Part shown: positions 6,413 to 19,795 of the stretch, in pieces
How positions within the stretch are numbered: position 1 is the stretch's first letter
Layout of the letters: every line of letters starts with the position of its first letter
Assembly: GCF_000016665.1 (NCBI RefSeq)
Contig: NC_009523.1
Coordinates: 434,001-498,000, forward strand
DNA from: Roseiflexus sp. RS-1
GTDB lineage: Bacteria; Chloroflexota; Chloroflexia; Chloroflexales; Roseiflexaceae
DNA length: 64,000 nt
Direction of reading: 5' to 3'
Made by a program: the position numbers and the translations under genes
Notes under the pieces: generated by a model
What the model was told of the DNA's origin: nothing
The model's database searches: none
The model's input: the letters and a program-made list of their open reading frames with translations, nothing else

Positions 6413-6744
6413 CCCGGTGTGCTACGGATTATGGTCTGAACCGCGCCAGGTACTGTCTGATCTCATCGGCGCGGATAAAGAAGCCCTGGAGGCGCCGTCA
6501 ACCGAATCCATCCAGTCAACCGCTTCTTTTGGTTTGGTGATGAGCTTTCTGCCAATTCCGGTGCGGATGACCGGTGGCAGACGCGGATGGACACATCTGT
6601 GCGAGCGTCCAGGCAGCGTGGCGCACTCCCGGCAGAGACGGACAGACCGGGACCATGCGAACGAATGGCGGGAATTATGCTGGTTCTGGTCAAAAAATAG
6701 TCGTTCCACCGTTCATTGGTGTAAGTGCCGATGTAACCCTAAAT
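6413..6744. other. Intergenic, nothing recognised
   Basis: No gene with a credible start, codon pattern or family match is seen. Base composition falls from GC-rich to AT-rich across this stretch, marking the left border of the island that follows. Confidence 0.5.
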
Positions 6745-7551
6745 CTAGGCGTACTGTGGGATAATATGAATATATACATGACCTGCGACTGTATCGGTAT
6801 CAACTTTTATGTTGAAATGTTTGGGGTAAAAACGTTCGTTTAGTATTTGCTTTACCCGTTCTACTACTGACCAGTAAGATTCTACGGTATAATGCGGAAT
6901 TTGAAGATAACGGGTGAAGTGTTTCTTGGGGATGACAAGCGTGTGACCAGGGGAAATCGGGCGTCTGACTAACACAGCATATGCATTGGCAGACTCGGTC
7001 AGTAATTCATAATCATTTGCAGGTGTGCAGAATGGGCATGTCGAAGGTGTAGAAGGCGAAGATAGTTGATTATAGTGGCGATAGTGGTATATTTCACAAT
7101 GATCGGTGCGAAGAATACTTTGATAGGGGAGCGTAACTGAGCACTGATACACCTCTACACGATGTTTCAGGTGAAGACGAAAACCATCACGTCGAATATC
7201 ACGTCGAACGGCAAAGTATGCGCTTCCCTCTGGAAGAAGCAGTTCAGAAATGGACATCAGGACGTACTCTTGCTCTTTCGGTAGAAGAACGTTCAATACA
7301 TAGATACAAACAATGGTATCAAACTTGCCCTTCGGTTGGTCTGGAGCATAATGAGGATCGTAGCCAGTAACGTTGTATCCTTTTTGTCGAAGGAACCTTA
7401 CATCTGATCCCAGACCACACCCAAAATCTAAAACACGACCGTTTATCAAACCCTTTTGAAATAAGTACCTTATCGGAAATGACTCTCGGTTGCGTTCTTT
7501 TGCAGTCATATGGCTGTGAGGATTCTTCGGGGAATGGAAAATAAGTTCCAT
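6745..7551 (-). CDS. SAM methyltransferase-HIT domain fusion
   Basis: The 268-residue protein has two domains. Residues about 15-120 are a class I SAM methyltransferase with motif I VLDFGCGLGSDVRFL and a motif-IV-like TIVCIYVLNVLL. This pattern resembles methyltransferases linked to DNA phosphorothioation loci. Residues about 165-268 are a HIT domain with the zinc-type CPFC motif and RRPISPGHTLVIPKKH. The HIT histidine triad, normally HxHxH, reads GHVYIHIIP: the middle, nucleophilic His is Tyr, so hydrolase activity is doubtful. It lies 33 bases downstream of the HNH gene on the same strand, and both are much more AT-rich than the flanks, suggesting joint transfer. The substrate is unknown. 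Confidence 0.75.
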   Translation of the reverse strand: MELIFHSPKNPHSHMTAKERNRESFPIRYLFQKGLINGRVLDFGCGLGSDVRFLRQKGYNVTGYDPHYAPDQPKGKFDTIVCIYVLNVLLPKEQEYVLMSISELLLPEGSAYFAVRRDIRRDGFRLHLKHRVEVYQCSVTLPYQSILRTDHCEIYHYRHYNQLSSPSTPSTCPFCTPANDYELLTESANAYAVLVRRPISPGHTLVIPKKHFTRYLQIPHYTVESYWSVVERVKQILNERFYPKHFNIKVDTDTVAGHVYIHIIPQYA

Positions 7552-7584
7552 AGAATGACCTGTTCATACAAGGGGTTTTCCATT

Positions 7585-8703
7585 TCATCGACGGTATTCC
7601 CAGTCGGTCAGGAAACCCATGTTTCGTGCTATCTGAACCTGTGGAATAATTGTGTCCCGAAGGTGTTGACTAAAATCTTGGAGATCCATATTTTGTAGTT
7701 CGGAAGCAGAATCGACCTTGAAAAGTAAAATGTGATCTTCAAGTAGTTTCGGTTTCTTTTCGGAGACTATTCTCACTGCATCGAGTTGGGTTTTTGCAAA
7801 AGAGTCAAAGTATTTGTCAATTTTGGGAATACTGTCACTTTTGGATGAGTTAACTTCTTTAGTTGTCGGAATAATATTCCAGATACAATCATTCGCAGTA
7901 AAGCTCCACGGAATAAAGTGGTCGAGTGAGTATCGCTTTTCGTCCAGGGTTTCTCCTGAATATATGCACTGCAGCGTTGTTTCTTTCTTGAATACGATGT
8001 TCCAGAACTCTCTTGCCCGCTTCATATCCCTTTCTTGGGGTTCAAACAATTTTCCGGGAATATTCGGTACATTAGGATTGTGTTTTTGTAGATATTCGAT
8101 TAATTTCCATAAACAAAATCCTCTTAAAATCGTAAGGTGTTGCTTGAGGTATTCGAACCATTCAGGATGTATCTCGATTGCTTGCTTTGTTTCAATTTCT
8201 ATAAAACGGTATAAGCACGGAGAACGGTCGAAGGTGCTTTGAGAAAGGTCTGAGATACGACGGTTTATCTCGGTGTCTTTTATGCCTCGCAGATCTCCCG
8301 AGAAAAAAGGACGAAGAAACCGGTAAGGAACAAATCGAGCGATTTTATAAATGGATTTTCCGGCGTCATCTTTATCCTGCATGTGCTTCAAAGCTTCGTC
8401 AAATACCTGGCTATAGGAACTATCTATTGGTAGCCCAGAACTTTCACGGAGAAGTGTTGCGACATTGCTCAGTTGATCCTGTTTACCAAAAGAGAGACGA
8501 AAATAGTTTGTTGGGAACCATACCCTGGCTACCATATGCGCCAGTAGTGTAGTGACAGGTATGGTGCGTGTTTGAGATTCCTTAATATGATCCAGGATGG
8601 CAAGAAACCAATAGAATTTGTACGAGTTTGTTACCTCGTCGAAACTCGCTGCCAGGGCAAATATGGGAAGTTGATTGGAATGAGGTAGACTATTCACGGA
8701 CAT
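7585..8703 (-). CDS. HNH endonuclease domain protein
   Basis: A 372-residue protein whose C-terminal third holds an HNH/McrA-like nuclease: CIYSGETL (residues about 243-250) replaces the usual CxxC zinc knuckle with a single Cys, followed by YSLDHFIPWS with the catalytic Asp-His and then a conserved Asn region (NDCIWNIIPTTKEVNSSKSD). The N-terminal 230 residues are mostly helical with no recognised family. Such HNH proteins are common in restriction and other defence loci. It is the first gene of a two-gene operon with the methyltransferase-HIT fusion. The ATG at 8703 follows an AT-rich leader with TATAAT about 20 bases upstream. Its low GC content is unlike the flanking genes. Confidence 0.75.
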   Translation of the reverse strand: MSVNSLPHSNQLPIFALAASFDEVTNSYKFYWFLAILDHIKESQTRTIPVTTLLAHMVARVWFPTNYFRLSFGKQDQLSNVATLLRESSGLPIDSSYSQVFDEALKHMQDKDDAGKSIYKIARFVPYRFLRPFFSGDLRGIKDTEINRRISDLSQSTFDRSPCLYRFIEIETKQAIEIHPEWFEYLKQHLTILRGFCLWKLIEYLQKHNPNVPNIPGKLFEPQERDMKRAREFWNIVFKKETTLQCIYSGETLDEKRYSLDHFIPWSFTANDCIWNIIPTTKEVNSSKSDSIPKIDKYFDSFAKTQLDAVRIVSEKKPKLLEDHILLFKVDSASELQNMDLQDFSQHLRDTIIPQVQIARNMGFLTDWEYRR

Positions 8704-8798
8704 GCAAGTCAGGTTTAAGTTTTATTATATTACCGTCTGATACCAGGCAGGGTTACGCTTCGTCAGCTTGCATCTTCCAATGTTTGCACACCCGCCGG

Positions 8799-8966
8799 TT
8801 ACTTCGTCCTATCAATACATCCTTCCCTTTTTCCCGGCTGACGGTAGCAGTCCAGCATACACGCAATGTCACGCTTGAGTGTGACGTCGGAGGGGTCGCG
8901 CAGGTTATGTGTGCGGATATATCCCCGGATCTGCCGCGCCAGCCCGTCGATGGTAAATTCGCTGCC
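8799..8966 (-). pseudogene. Possible C-terminal remnant of a DUF4007-like gene
   Basis: In one minus-strand frame about 55 codons read as a protein-like segment including FTIDGLARQIRGYIRTHN and DVTLKRDIACMLDCY, which resemble the end of DUF4007 proteins. DUF4007 genes are often found beside DNA-sulfur-modification and related defence genes. A stop codon cuts the frame immediately upstream, and a neighbouring frame continues protein-like sequence, so the gene is broken. It lies directly upstream of the HNH gene. Family assignment is from memory of the motif and is weak. Confidence 0.3.
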
Positions 8967-10160: not shown

Positions 10161-10737
10161 GGGCAAGGGGGATGAGGGAGCAAATGCGCACGGGAATGCC
10201 CGCGCATCTCTGCCAGGAACGCTCCCCTTGTGCGGTGCGCGCGCCTCCGGTGCGCACGCGGGCGGGACGCCCGCGCACCCGGCGCAAACCTCAGGTGCGC
10301 GCGCCTCCGGTGCGCACGCGGGCGGGACGCCCGCGCACCCGGCGCAAACCTCAGGTGCGCGCGCCTCCGGTGCGCACGCGGGCGGGACGCGCTGCCCGCC
10401 AGGAACTCGATGCAGAGTTCCGCACCTCCGGCGCGCACGCGGGCAGGACGCCCGCACTCCCGGCGCAAACCTCAGGTGCGCGCGCCCTTGCAGGGTCAGG
10501 TTTGTTGGCAAGCCCCGGCGTGCCATCTTTCCTTTCAGGCATCAGGACGCCCAAACTTCCCCTGCTCCCACAAGGGGAGCAGGGGGCAAGGGGGATGAGG
10601 GGGCAAACGCACACGGGAATGCAGAACATCACTCATCGCTCCCAAGAACTCTACCCTTGAGAAGTCGGGAGATGAGGGGCAAACGCGCACAGGAGCGCGG
10701 CACACCGCTCGCTGCTCCCAGGAACTCTCCCCTTGCG
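10161..10737. repeat. Three diverged copies of a ~75-bp repeat
   Basis: Similar blocks occur at about 10161-10231, 10583-10660 and 10669-10737. Each starts with a GGG-rich AT-containing stretch (GATGAGGG.GCAAA.GC.CA) and ends with CCCAGGAACTCTCCCCTTG or a variant. They surround the 60-bp tandem array. Confidence 0.6.
10235..10486. repeat. 60-bp tandem repeat array
   Basis: Two perfect 60-bp copies (10235-10294 and 10295-10354), a third partial copy to about 10390 and a degenerate copy at about 10431-10486. Each unit contains the palindrome GCGGGCGGGACGCCCGC, which can form a stable hairpin. There is no variable spacer, so it is not a CRISPR array. Confidence 0.9.
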
Positions 10738-16801: not shown

Positions 16802-18332
16802 GTAACTGCCTACCATTCTACGGGAAGTGGTAACTGCCTACCATTCTACGGGAAGTGTGGTAAATTATCGCCGTGGCTGAGCAACTGCCGGAAGTAGAAA
16901 TCCTGCTCAAGCGACTGAGTTCTCTTGAGGCCCAGATTGTCCGTCTGCAGGCGGAAGCAGCCGATCTGCGAGCGGAGAACGCCCGCCTGCAGGCCGAGAA
17001 TGACCGTCTCCAGGCCGAGAACATCGAGTTGAAGCGTCGGTTGGGACCGAACAGCCAGAACAGCCACAAGCCACCCAGCAGCGACGGGTATCGGAAGAAG
17101 CGAATACAGCCGGCGCTGCCCAAAGACAAGAAGCCACGCGGCGGACAGCCTGGGCACACGGGTCGAACCTTACAGGCGGCGGAGCAACCCGACCAGGTGC
17201 AGGTTCATTTGCCAGCGCGTTGCGCTGGGTGTGGGCGGATCATCTCGGCGCATGAATCGCATAAGGGGGCGGGCAAGCGACAGGTGTTTGATAGACCAGG
17301 GCCGCGCTTGGTCGTGACCGAACATCGGTTGGGGGAAATCACATGCTGCCAGCAGGCCCAGCGCGGCGTCTACCCGGCGAATGTGACAGCCAGCGTGCGG
17401 GATGGGCCTGGAGTACGAGCACTGGTCACCCAGTTGTCGGTGGATCACAACATGCCGCTGGAGCAGATGTGCCGCTTGTTCGAGGACGTGTTTGGATACG
17501 CGCTGAACCGTGAGACGGTAGCGACGGCTCTGGAACAGGGGTATGAACTGGCGGCGGCGGTGGAAGCAGCCACGGTGGAGCAGTTGAAGCGAGCGGAGGT
17601 GGCGCATGTTGATGAGACGGGGCTGCGGGGAGCGGGGAGGCTGCGCTGGCTGCACACCGCGAGCGACAGCCGGTATACCCATCTGTTTGTGCACCCCAAG
17701 CGCGGGGGCGAGGCCGTGCGCAGCGATGCGTCGGTGCGCAAGGATTTCGGCGGACGAGCGATTCATGATTGCTTGCCGGCCTCCTACCAGTTTGAACAGG
17801 CCAACCATGGGGCGTGCCTGGCGCACATCCTGCGCGAACTGCAAGGATTGGTAGAGCAAGGGTCAGCATGGGCAGAGGTGATGCGTGACTTCCTGTGGCA
17901 TCTGTATGAACAGGCGCGGCCCTTGCAAGGGGAGGCGGCTGCGGCGGCCCGGAATCGCTATCGGCAGATCGTGAGTGCGGCGGAGTTGGCCGAGCCGCCG
18001 CCTGAACAGAAAGCAGGCCCGGGACGCCCCAAAAGCACAGCGGGGCGTAATGTGCTGCGGCGGCTGAAGGAGCGTGAGGAAGCGGTGCTTGCCTTTGCAC
18101 TGGTGGAGGGTGTGCCCTTCACCAACAACCAGGCTGAGCGAGACTTGCGCCCGGCCAAAGTCAAACAGAAAGTAAGCGGCTGTTTTCGCACTGACCAGGG
18201 GGCAGCGGTGTATGCCCGCCTGCAGGCGGTGATCTCTCCTTGTCACAAACAGGGGCGCAACGTCTTCGCCACGCTGCGCGACCTCTTCGCTCGCCAGCCA
18301 GTCTCCCTACTTGCAGGCGGCTAGGCAGTTAC
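16802..18332 (+). mobile_element. IS66-family insertion sequence
   Basis: An 11-bp inverted repeat GTAACTGCCTA occurs at 16802-16812 and again at 16830-16840 on the left, and its complement TAGGCAGTTAC at 18322-18332 on the right. The stop codon of the transposase lies inside the right repeat. The left terminal 28 bases are duplicated in tandem (16802-16829 and 16830-16857), so the true left end is either copy. It carries only the transposase gene, without the tnpA/tnpB accessory genes of classical IS66, like the ISBst12 subgroup. Target-site duplications were not identified. Confidence 0.85.
16873..18324 (+). CDS. IS66-family transposase
   Basis: The 483-residue DDE transposase is intact. 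Residues about 8-55 form a leucine-zipper coiled coil (LRAENARLQAENDRLQAEN). A zinc-finger-like CAGCGRIISAHES follows near residue 115, then the catalytic domain with AHVDETGLRG, a second Asp region (HDCLPASYQF and NHGACLAHILRELQ), and the C-terminal NNQAERDLRPAKVKQKVSG containing the catalytic Glu. It starts at GTG 16873 shortly after the left terminal repeat; no strong ribosome site is visible. An uninterrupted frame suggests recent mobility. Confidence 0.93.
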   Translation: MAEQLPEVEILLKRLSSLEAQIVRLQAEAADLRAENARLQAENDRLQAENIELKRRLGPNSQNSHKPPSSDGYRKKRIQPALPKDKKPRGGQPGHTGRTLQAAEQPDQVQVHLPARCAGCGRIISAHESHKGAGKRQVFDRPGPRLVVTEHRLGEITCCQQAQRGVYPANVTASVRDGPGVRALVTQLSVDHNMPLEQMCRLFEDVFGYALNRETVATALEQGYELAAAVEAATVEQLKRAEVAHVDETGLRGAGRLRWLHTASDSRYTHLFVHPKRGGEAVRSDASVRKDFGGRAIHDCLPASYQFEQANHGACLAHILRELQGLVEQGSAWAEVMRDFLWHLYEQARPLQGEAAAAARNRYRQIVSAAELAEPPPEQKAGPGRPKSTAGRNVLRRLKEREEAVLAFALVEGVPFTNNQAERDLRPAKVKQKVSGCFRTDQGAAVYARLQAVISPCHKQGRNVFATLRDLFARQPVSLLAGG

Positions 18333-18426
18333 GAACTGCTACGATTTGGGCCGCACCTGTCGCTCGAAGGAGCGGAGTTTCCAGACAATTTTACGCTGGT
18401 GATCTTTGATACTGATGTTCCAGACG

Positions 18427-19795
18427 TCAACGCATGACCATCGGCAAAAACACCTGACTCTTTTTCGTTCCTATCAAACTGAACTCGCTCAGATGACATA
18501 CCCTTACTTCAAACAGGTTTTGGTCAGCATCGAGCCGCTCATATCGCTCTGCGATCGGACATGTCTCGGCGGCATCCTTCCAGGAGTTTGATGCTCGATC
18601 CCAGTAGAACAGGTCGAGAGAGTTCTCATCAAAGATGTTGGCAAGATTGGTGTCAGTGTATCTGAGCGTAATGGTGATCGGTTGGTTAAACGAGAAAGTA
18701 TCGCCTGGTACACCGTTGATCGAGACACTTAGCCGAAAGGCGTGGGCTGTTTGAGTGTTGGCTGGCAAGGGGTTGGCATTAGCAACCAGTGGATGGTAAC
18801 TTAGCGTGATCGGCTGTGTTATTGCACCAGATGGTAATGTAATCGTGTGCTGGTTTCCACTATAGTCAGTAAAGACGACGGAATCTGCATTACTTGCTGC
18901 AAGATCTCGGTCTTGCCTGAACGTTTGGAGATTGAAATCGATGTGTTCCCAGACGGTAGCATTCGACCTCAAGAACAATGGCAGCGATGGGATGTCTTCT
19001 GCAAATTGGTTGATCACGGTGGCGTAGAAAGTTTTACGTTGTTCGCGGGGAAGCCGGGGATCGCTGGCTTGTATAATAGCGTCTGAAGCTTCCTGATTAC
19101 ACCATCCCATAAAGTTTTGACCAGACCAGTTGTTTGTTGGTGAAGGGATCTGGTTGCATGCGTATAGGGTGTAACCGCCAGGTTCGTCATCTTCGATGAT
19201 CCAGGCAAAGTTGCCAAGTTCAAAATCACGTACCTGTAAGCCTGTAGAATCACCAAACCACCAGGACGCAGGTTGATGATTACGGATAATCCGAATGCCA
19301 CAGGCTTTCATTTGCTCCTCAAACACGGTGAGATACGTCACTCTGAAAGGAGCGGTAGTCGTAGTCAATATCAACACCAACTCTTTTCCATCCTTGGATC
19401 GGTACTCAGCACCACTCTGAAGCGTCCAACCTGCTTCATCTAATAGTTGTTGACCAACCGTCGGGTTGTAAGGATAAGTTGTATTAGGAGCGGTGTATGC
19501 CCAGTTGGTCTTTGGCACAAAGGTATCCATGACCAACTCTTGCCGTTGCTCAGGTGTGAGCGCGGGATACACCGATGCAATCAGAGCATCCTTGTTGGTG
19601 CAATAGGCAATAGCCCGACGTATCCTGACATCACTTAAGATTCGGATGTGGAACGGGTTCGATAGAAGAAGTACTCAGTTCTAATGGCTTGGAAGTTTCA
19701 AGTGGCTGGTTGATTTGAGCGGTAACTGGATGGGTAGCACCGACTACAATCAGGGCTATTGTGGTGGCAACGAAGAGTAAGGCTACGCGTTTCAT
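18427..19795 (-). pseudogene. Deleted ABC transporter substrate-binding protein
   Basis: A peptide/nickel-type solute-binding protein (SBP_bac_5) with most of its N-terminal body missing. The start at 19795 has a strong GGAGGT ribosome site and encodes a signal peptide (MKRVALLFVATTIALIVVG). After about 55 codons the frame ends at 19631, and a shifted frame resumes with ILSDVRIRRAIAYCTNKD, the family's conserved helix, continuing for about 390 residues to 18427. Roughly 250-300 expected residues are absent and the reading frame is broken. The C-terminal extension beyond the binding fold ends in QVFLPMVMR, like other secreted proteins here. No permease or ATPase genes are adjacent. Confidence 0.75.

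Follow-up and report, generated by a model that had tools for sequence, protein, structure and literature searches.

The window analysed here, a stretch of 64,000 nucleotides, corresponds to positions 434001-498000 of the complete 5.80-Mb genome of Roseiflexus sp. RS-1 and contains, on its reverse strand, two intact genes separated by 33 bases (7552..7584). The first (7585..8703, -) encodes a 372-residue HNH endonuclease that matches Pfam HNH_4 (E=4.7e-10), and the second (6745..7551, -) a 268-residue protein, hereafter FUS, in which a class I SAM methyltransferase (7050..7551, -; residues about 1-160; Pfam Methyltransf_23, E=4.2e-13) is fused to a HIT domain (6745..7060, -; residues about 165-268; Pfam HIT, E=1.2e-10). 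The pair has a GC content of 0.42, compared with 0.60 in the remainder of the window, and in all 14 relatives checked the pair likewise has a lower GC content than its flanks. An earlier note on this DNA had described two adjacent same-strand genes in an AT-rich island, one for an HNH endonuclease and one for a methyltransferase-HIT fusion, and each of these points is borne out. Elsewhere in the window there are a GC-rich 60-base tandem repeat in about four copies (10234-10486), embedded in a stretch of approximately 76% GC, and an intact frame on the forward strand (16873-18324) recognised by eye as an IS66-like transposase, which is followed at 18400-19700 by AT-richer sequence with an apparent C-terminal part of a solute-binding protein.

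Upstream of the HNH gene, at a distance of 98 bases, lies a 55-codon open stretch (8802-8966, -) of which about 45 residues match SspB/DUF4007, at about positions 119-168 of 288; a report on type-4 BREX describes the DUF4007 protein of these systems as SspB (PMC12839542). Taken by itself the similarity is marginal, with E=1.5e-5 against the PADLOC SspB model and E=0.0011, under the curated cut-off, against Pfam DUF4007, and pairwise tblastn of five SspB proteins against the window did not recover the fragment. On the other hand, no other DUF4007 match turned up anywhere in the 5.8-Mb genome at a threshold of E<=10, the fragment itself scoring weakly there (E=0.03), and among 1,899 six-frame segments of the window it ranks first against an SspB profile built for this analysis (E=0.0015). 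Because its position and strand fit the order of intact loci, sspB-sspC-(sspD)-HNH-FUS, in which sspB holds this upstream slot, we consider the fragment very probably a remnant of sspB, so that the broken DUF4007 gene suspected in the earlier note is retained as a probable assignment. The RS-1 copy of the pair appears to be an orphan whose modification genes are gone save for this stub: profile searches of the complete genome detected neither DndC nor SspD nor a full-length DUF4007 protein, and no match to SspA, SspC or SspD was obtained within the 64-kb window.

The HNH protein combines a helical N-terminal region (residues 1-210), possibly with a winged-helix part, and, at the C-terminus, an HNH domain of the Cas9 type (residues about 225-364), within which the HNH_4 match covers residues 246-293 and the residues D261-H262, N276 and K288 are invariant in an alignment of 72 relatives. 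Residues 225-364 of the predicted structure (pLDDT 95.9, pTM 0.90) align to Cas9 HNH domains with Z scores of up to 6.0. For the N-terminal region, a fold search gave nothing better than a winged-helix arrangement as in ORC (Z 7.1, a value inside the tool's stated noise range), although the region may still adopt a known fold; as it has no convincing solved relative, recognition of phosphorothioate (PT) by this protein is without structural support. Pfam gives HNH_4 alone, with no DUF262, and neither an SRA nor a sulfur-binding domain was matched by sequence. In a number of cyanobacterial loci (including L088, L103, L104 and L106) the HNH protein has about 460 residues and an N-terminal extension that resembles an HTH repressor, which suggests a self-regulated form.

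The methyltransferase part of FUS carries the motifs LDFGCGLGSD (motif I), YVLNVL and VRRDI, and its kin include small methyltransferases of phages and the family TIGR04096 ('DNA phosphorothioation-associated putative methyltransferase'). FUS residues 14-89 match TIGR04096 with E=4.4e-17, at a score of 62 bits compared to a curated cut-off of 150 and with the match confined to the N-terminal 82 model positions, and hhalign of FUS against TIGR04096 proteins yields 96 columns at 98.5% probability. Judged by these alignments, the methyltransferase of FUS is a relative of TIGR04096 that falls short of the family cut-off. The [DNS]PP[YFW] motif of amino-DNA methyltransferases is absent, the motif IV region reading YVLNVL, up to one residue, in 28/28 aligned FUS sequences, and no target-recognition domain is found in FUS. 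A structure predicted for the FUS of a relative (L034; pLDDT 90.7), rather than for the RS-1 copy, resembles solved HIT proteins (Z 15.5) and, in its methyltransferase part, small-molecule enzymes, namely a heterocyclic toxin methyltransferase (Z 14.0) and Ecm18 (Z 13.6). Methyltransferases with a FUS-like signature (DYGCG...YVLNV...VRRD...YQ), most of them stand-alone and of 140-220 residues, are encoded on 80 environmental phage contigs (L163-L242), none of which shows a HIT domain in these proteins; a search of cultured phages with one of them returned a single weak relative, and the phage records searched with the complete fusion returned none.

The HIT domain of RS-1 is degenerate. Its triad, within the motif HVYIHIIPQ, reads H-V-Y-I-H, with tyrosine in place of the middle histidine, a short deletion precedes this motif, and the usual GDVxNPxGGxR tail is missing. 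For these reasons the domain is probably inactive, with the methyltransferase motifs remaining intact. The FUS of Roseiflexus sp. SKYB12 has a HIT domain that is likewise degenerate in part. Among 39 FUS sequences (a few genomes being counted twice) the triad is HHH in 20 and has the middle histidine replaced in about 17, so that HIT hydrolysis is not general across the family.

A search of genome contigs with a profile of the HNH protein produced 345 candidate relatives, and the best 80, chosen by similarity of HNH and not of FUS, were kept. FUS lies directly downstream of HNH in 29 of these best 80 of 345 loci (two cut by contig ends), and HNH is without an adjacent FUS in the other 51, some of them cut by contig ends. 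The paired loci span Chloroflexota, Bacteroidota, Spirochaetota and Calditrichota, as judged by record titles. In a second sample, 291 genomes taken evenly across the order of Spirosoma, HNH is present in 17 and adjoins FUS in 13 of the 17. Conserved pairing across phyla, on which the earlier note had made its idea of a system depend, is thus found in at least four phyla. The trees of HNH and FUS for 26 pairs are correlated (mirror-tree r=0.82, a value reached by 0 of 2000 permutations), with shared species history contributing to the correlation. In close pairs dN/dS is low, 0.04-0.09 for HNH and 0.03-0.06 for FUS, which indicates strong purifying selection, and both genes must therefore have been kept functional in the relatives. 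The pairing of HNH and FUS is not due to chance. In several loci (L034, L036, L041, L068, L101 and others) the reading frames of the two genes either touch or share a few bases, an arrangement typical of translational coupling. When the fusion protein was used to scan 301 genomes of the phylum, the hits were for the most part ordinary HIT proteins and gave no information on the pair.

The resemblance to PT loci that the earlier note had read from the methyltransferase motif and from DUF4007 turned out to be direct. Relatives of the pair are located in ssp operons (L038, L040, L046, L050, L058, L060, L067, L073 and L078), where the general order is SspB-SspC-(SspD)-HNH-FUS(-SspA) and DUF4007 is SspB: HNH and FUS follow sspB, sspC and sspD in L040, L050, L060 and others, with the specific orders SspB-SspC-HNH-FUS-SspA in L040 and SspB-SspC-SspD-HNH-FUS in L060. 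A survey of nearby dnd and ssp genes, as the note had proposed, places SspB, SspC or SspD no more than 10 kb from HNH in 28 of the best 80 of 345 loci, or in 35 when cysteine desulfurase is counted. With PADLOC, DndF, DndG and DndH are found near HNH in L079, DndC, DndF, DndG and a DndD/PbeC-type ATPase in L086, and SspF, SspG and SspH in L087. In L038 and L073, PADLOC identifies PglZ and BrxL beside the pair, along with DUF4007 and a shortened sspC/brxC homologue, and these two loci are therefore type-4 BREX-like. HNH often occurs without FUS in the PT loci among the best 80 of 345, and on cyanobacterial plasmids members of the HNH family are accompanied by SspA and, in place of FUS, by a TIGR04096 protein of full length. 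In the order of Spirosoma, sspB is present in only 31/291 genomes, which makes adjacency by chance negligible, yet it lies within 2.5 kb of HNH in 2 of the 17 genomes with HNH, far more than chance would give. At the level of whole genomes, HNH and DUF4007 co-occur in 4/17, compared with 31/291 overall, which is no significant excess; most pairs in this order are therefore not tied to Ssp.

The pair is indeed frequently found by itself. Among 27 genomes with FUS, DUF4007 is present in 9, DndC over the cut-off in 3 and a strong SspD match in 3, with a fourth borderline; SspD matches near E=1e-4 were disregarded since 7/14 control genomes also give them. Taken together, 11 or 12 of the 27 have at least one of these genes and 15 or 16 have none. 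In some loci a modification gene is truncated upstream of an intact HNH gene, SspC being reduced to pieces in L038, L046, L067, L073 and L078 and SspB to a part in L059. For several loci the contigs are metagenome-binned, and a truncation there can be an assembly artefact; since L073 and L078 are isolates, this does not account for every truncation. The earlier note had left a choice between a remnant and a minimal two-gene system, and each proves partly right: what RS-1 carries seems to be left over from an Ssp/BREX-4-type locus, and numerous genomes have the pair alone. The idea that HNH is a homing endonuclease or other inserted element was considered and rejected, because the SspC fragments upstream comprise just the N-terminal part, with no C-terminal half found downstream in L038, L067, L073 and L078; as for the mobile intron that would have undermined the note's proposal, no split host gene surrounds HNH in these four loci. 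Between 6300 and 9300 in the window, no flanking repeats were found except for one 16-nt inverted pair.

Within the genus Roseiflexus, HNH is present in 2/6 genomes. In Roseiflexus sp. SKYB12 the pair (L031, 478-2471) occupies the same chromosomal site as in RS-1 (6745-8703), and the two HNH proteins are only 60% identical, compared to 96% for a neighbouring gene; synonymous differences amount to 0.79-0.84 in the pair versus 0.54 in the neighbour. This pattern, with the pair far more diverged than its neighbour, fits two separate gains, or a replacement, at one site better than simple vertical descent, and the site may be a hotspot of exchange. Another genome (G301) is about 91-92% identical to RS-1 up to position 6495 of the window, where the similarity ends, and it differs on the right-hand side.

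On the basis of these data, we read HNH-FUS as a nuclease module that is at home in PT-type defence loci and also has a stand-alone life. It would be a conserved module that moves horizontally, belongs around PT systems (Ssp, type-4 BREX and Dnd) and survives without them. For the whole of this reading, including the mechanism outlined below, we estimate a probability of about 0.45; the narrower part of it, concerning the identity of the two proteins and their status as a PT-linked, often orphaned pair, is in our judgement well supported and very likely correct. The interpretation of the earlier note is thus supported. What the sequences show directly is the identity of the genes, their conserved pairing and association with PT loci, the orphan state, the conserved nuclease residues and the selection acting on relatives; a role in defence, the DNA that would be targeted and the function of FUS are inferred.

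In the mechanism that we propose, the N-terminal region of HNH would bind DNA and the Cas9-like domain would nick or cut it, the target most likely being incoming DNA that is PT-marked or otherwise modified, or else DNA in a state revealed by a trigger. Since hosts in which no PT genes are detected also keep the nuclease intact, it cannot be restrained by host PT marks alone; in hosts with PT, the partner genes might regulate it, and a role similar to that of type IV enzymes could then explain both settings. FUS would be the dedicated partner, its methyltransferase domain binding SAM and its HIT domain binding or hydrolysing a nucleotide, and it may either process sulfur-bearing nucleotides freed from PT-DNA or act as a nucleotide- or SAM-sensing regulator of the nuclease. 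What makes the HIT domain suggestive is the ability of human HINT1 to convert nucleoside 5'-phosphorothioates, for example dGMPS to dGMP and H2S (PMC8775712), these substrates being the class of product expected from cut PT-DNA. For the many FUS proteins that have lost the middle histidine, nucleotide sensing is suggested instead. More tentatively, and at somewhat worse than even odds, the pair could be a hitherto undescribed, autonomous two-gene system against invaders, spread over at least four phyla and either split from PT loci or recruited by them, in which the action of FUS on sulfur- or SAM-linked nucleotides would license or trigger the nuclease.

Other explanations have to be weighed against this reading. 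The tight pairing and co-inheritance of a nuclease and a methyltransferase gene, and the survival of the pair without PT genes, are what one would expect of a self-contained module resembling restriction-modification, in which FUS would modify the base or backbone of host DNA, HNH would cut unmarked DNA and the PT genes would be mere neighbours in defence islands; the HIT-less relatives of the FUS methyltransferase on environmental phage contigs could then serve for phage self-protection. We nevertheless regard this as unlikely, as FUS has YVLNVL in place of a [DN]PP[YF] motif and no target-recognition domain, it is structurally closest to small-molecule methyltransferases, HNH often does without it in PT loci, and the HIT domain is left unexplained. 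Less likely again is a PT restriction effector like SspE or DndI, which would spare PT-marked self and cut unmarked DNA, the orphans being decaying relics. The position inside sspB-sspC-sspD operons and the RS-1 copy itself, with its degenerate HIT domain and sspB stub, agree with such an effector, and SspE is inactive without PT (quoted in PMC11662687), which would make orphans of such an enzyme harmless. Relics, however, are hard to reconcile with orphan pairs being the majority, with dN/dS values of 0.03-0.09 in close relatives and with invariant nuclease residues, and no DUF262, the domain used by both SspE and DndI (PMC11662687), was found.

Tight coupling combined with stand-alone occurrence would also suit a toxin-antitoxin or abortive module, in which HNH would be a DNA-damaging toxin checked by FUS and freed during infection by a nucleotide- or SAM-linked signal; HIT domains bind nucleotides, and the many FUS proteins that keep the fold without the middle histidine would fit a sensor. 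An antidote, however, is evidently not needed everywhere, given the 51 of the best 80 of 345 loci (some cut by contig ends) that lack an adjacent FUS, and we rate this slightly below the SspE/DndI-like effector. A housekeeping or DNA-repair function without any role in defence, although some pairs sit among ordinary genes and aprataxin-type HIT proteins act on DNA ends, is very improbable in view of the patchy presence (2/6 genomes of the genus, 17/291 of the order), the GC content below that of the flanks in the 14 relatives checked, the plasmid copies of HNH and the recurrence of PT and BREX neighbours.

Several known systems resemble the pair in part. Ssp systems (SspABCD with SspE or SspFGH) include relatives of the pair in their operons, with SspFGH beside HNH in L087, but RS-1 has no sspA-D set beyond the probable sspB fragment, the pair also lives without sspABCD, and the nuclease has a Cas9-type HNH_4 domain rather than DUF1524, with no DUF262 found. 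DndI and SspE, which consist of DUF262 and a DUF1524 HNH domain, are similarly HNH nucleases encoded with PT modification genes and differ in both the N-terminal domain and the HNH family (PMC11662687). Type-4 BREX, with DUF4007/PAPS reductase, BrxC, PglZ, BrxL and cysteine desulfurase, shares the DUF4007, shortened sspC/brxC homologue, PglZ and BrxL that surround the pair in L038 and L073, and the pair is unmentioned among its components in the available part of the report (PMC12839542). The TIGR04096 proteins that were compared align with FUS over some 96 columns of the methyltransferase core and accompany the same HNH family, but they have 660-690 residues and no HIT domain, whereas FUS has about 270-300 with one. 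The PT-dependent type IV enzymes ScoMcrA and SprMcrA, proposed here solely as a functional parallel, are also HNH nucleases able to live in a host free of PT genes, although neither the SRA nor the sulfur-binding domain is matched by sequence in our HNH protein. Finally, FUS has the fold of HIT/Hint hydrolases, and the dGMPS chemistry of HINT1 (PMC8775712) would suit PT nucleotides, but it is fused to a methyltransferase and the middle histidine of its triad is gone in nearly half of the 39 sequences.

PADLOC, NCBIfam and Pfam contain no model for the HNH-FUS pair, PADLOC giving domain-level matches only, and no published description was found in the open literature searched. Two surveys of PT and BREX genes list other HNH types (PMC10853773, PMC12839542), and a prior listing in their supplementary tables is possible. 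The known effectors of PT defence are only a handful, SspE, SspFGH, DndFGH, DndI and PbeABCD, and HNH with its FUS partner would add a type to them. As a compact relative of TIGR04096, FUS offers a concrete system in which to ask what the unexplained 'dnd-associated methyltransferase' does, and the orphan pairs in hosts free of PT genes make the targeting of PT-marked DNA by such nucleases directly testable.
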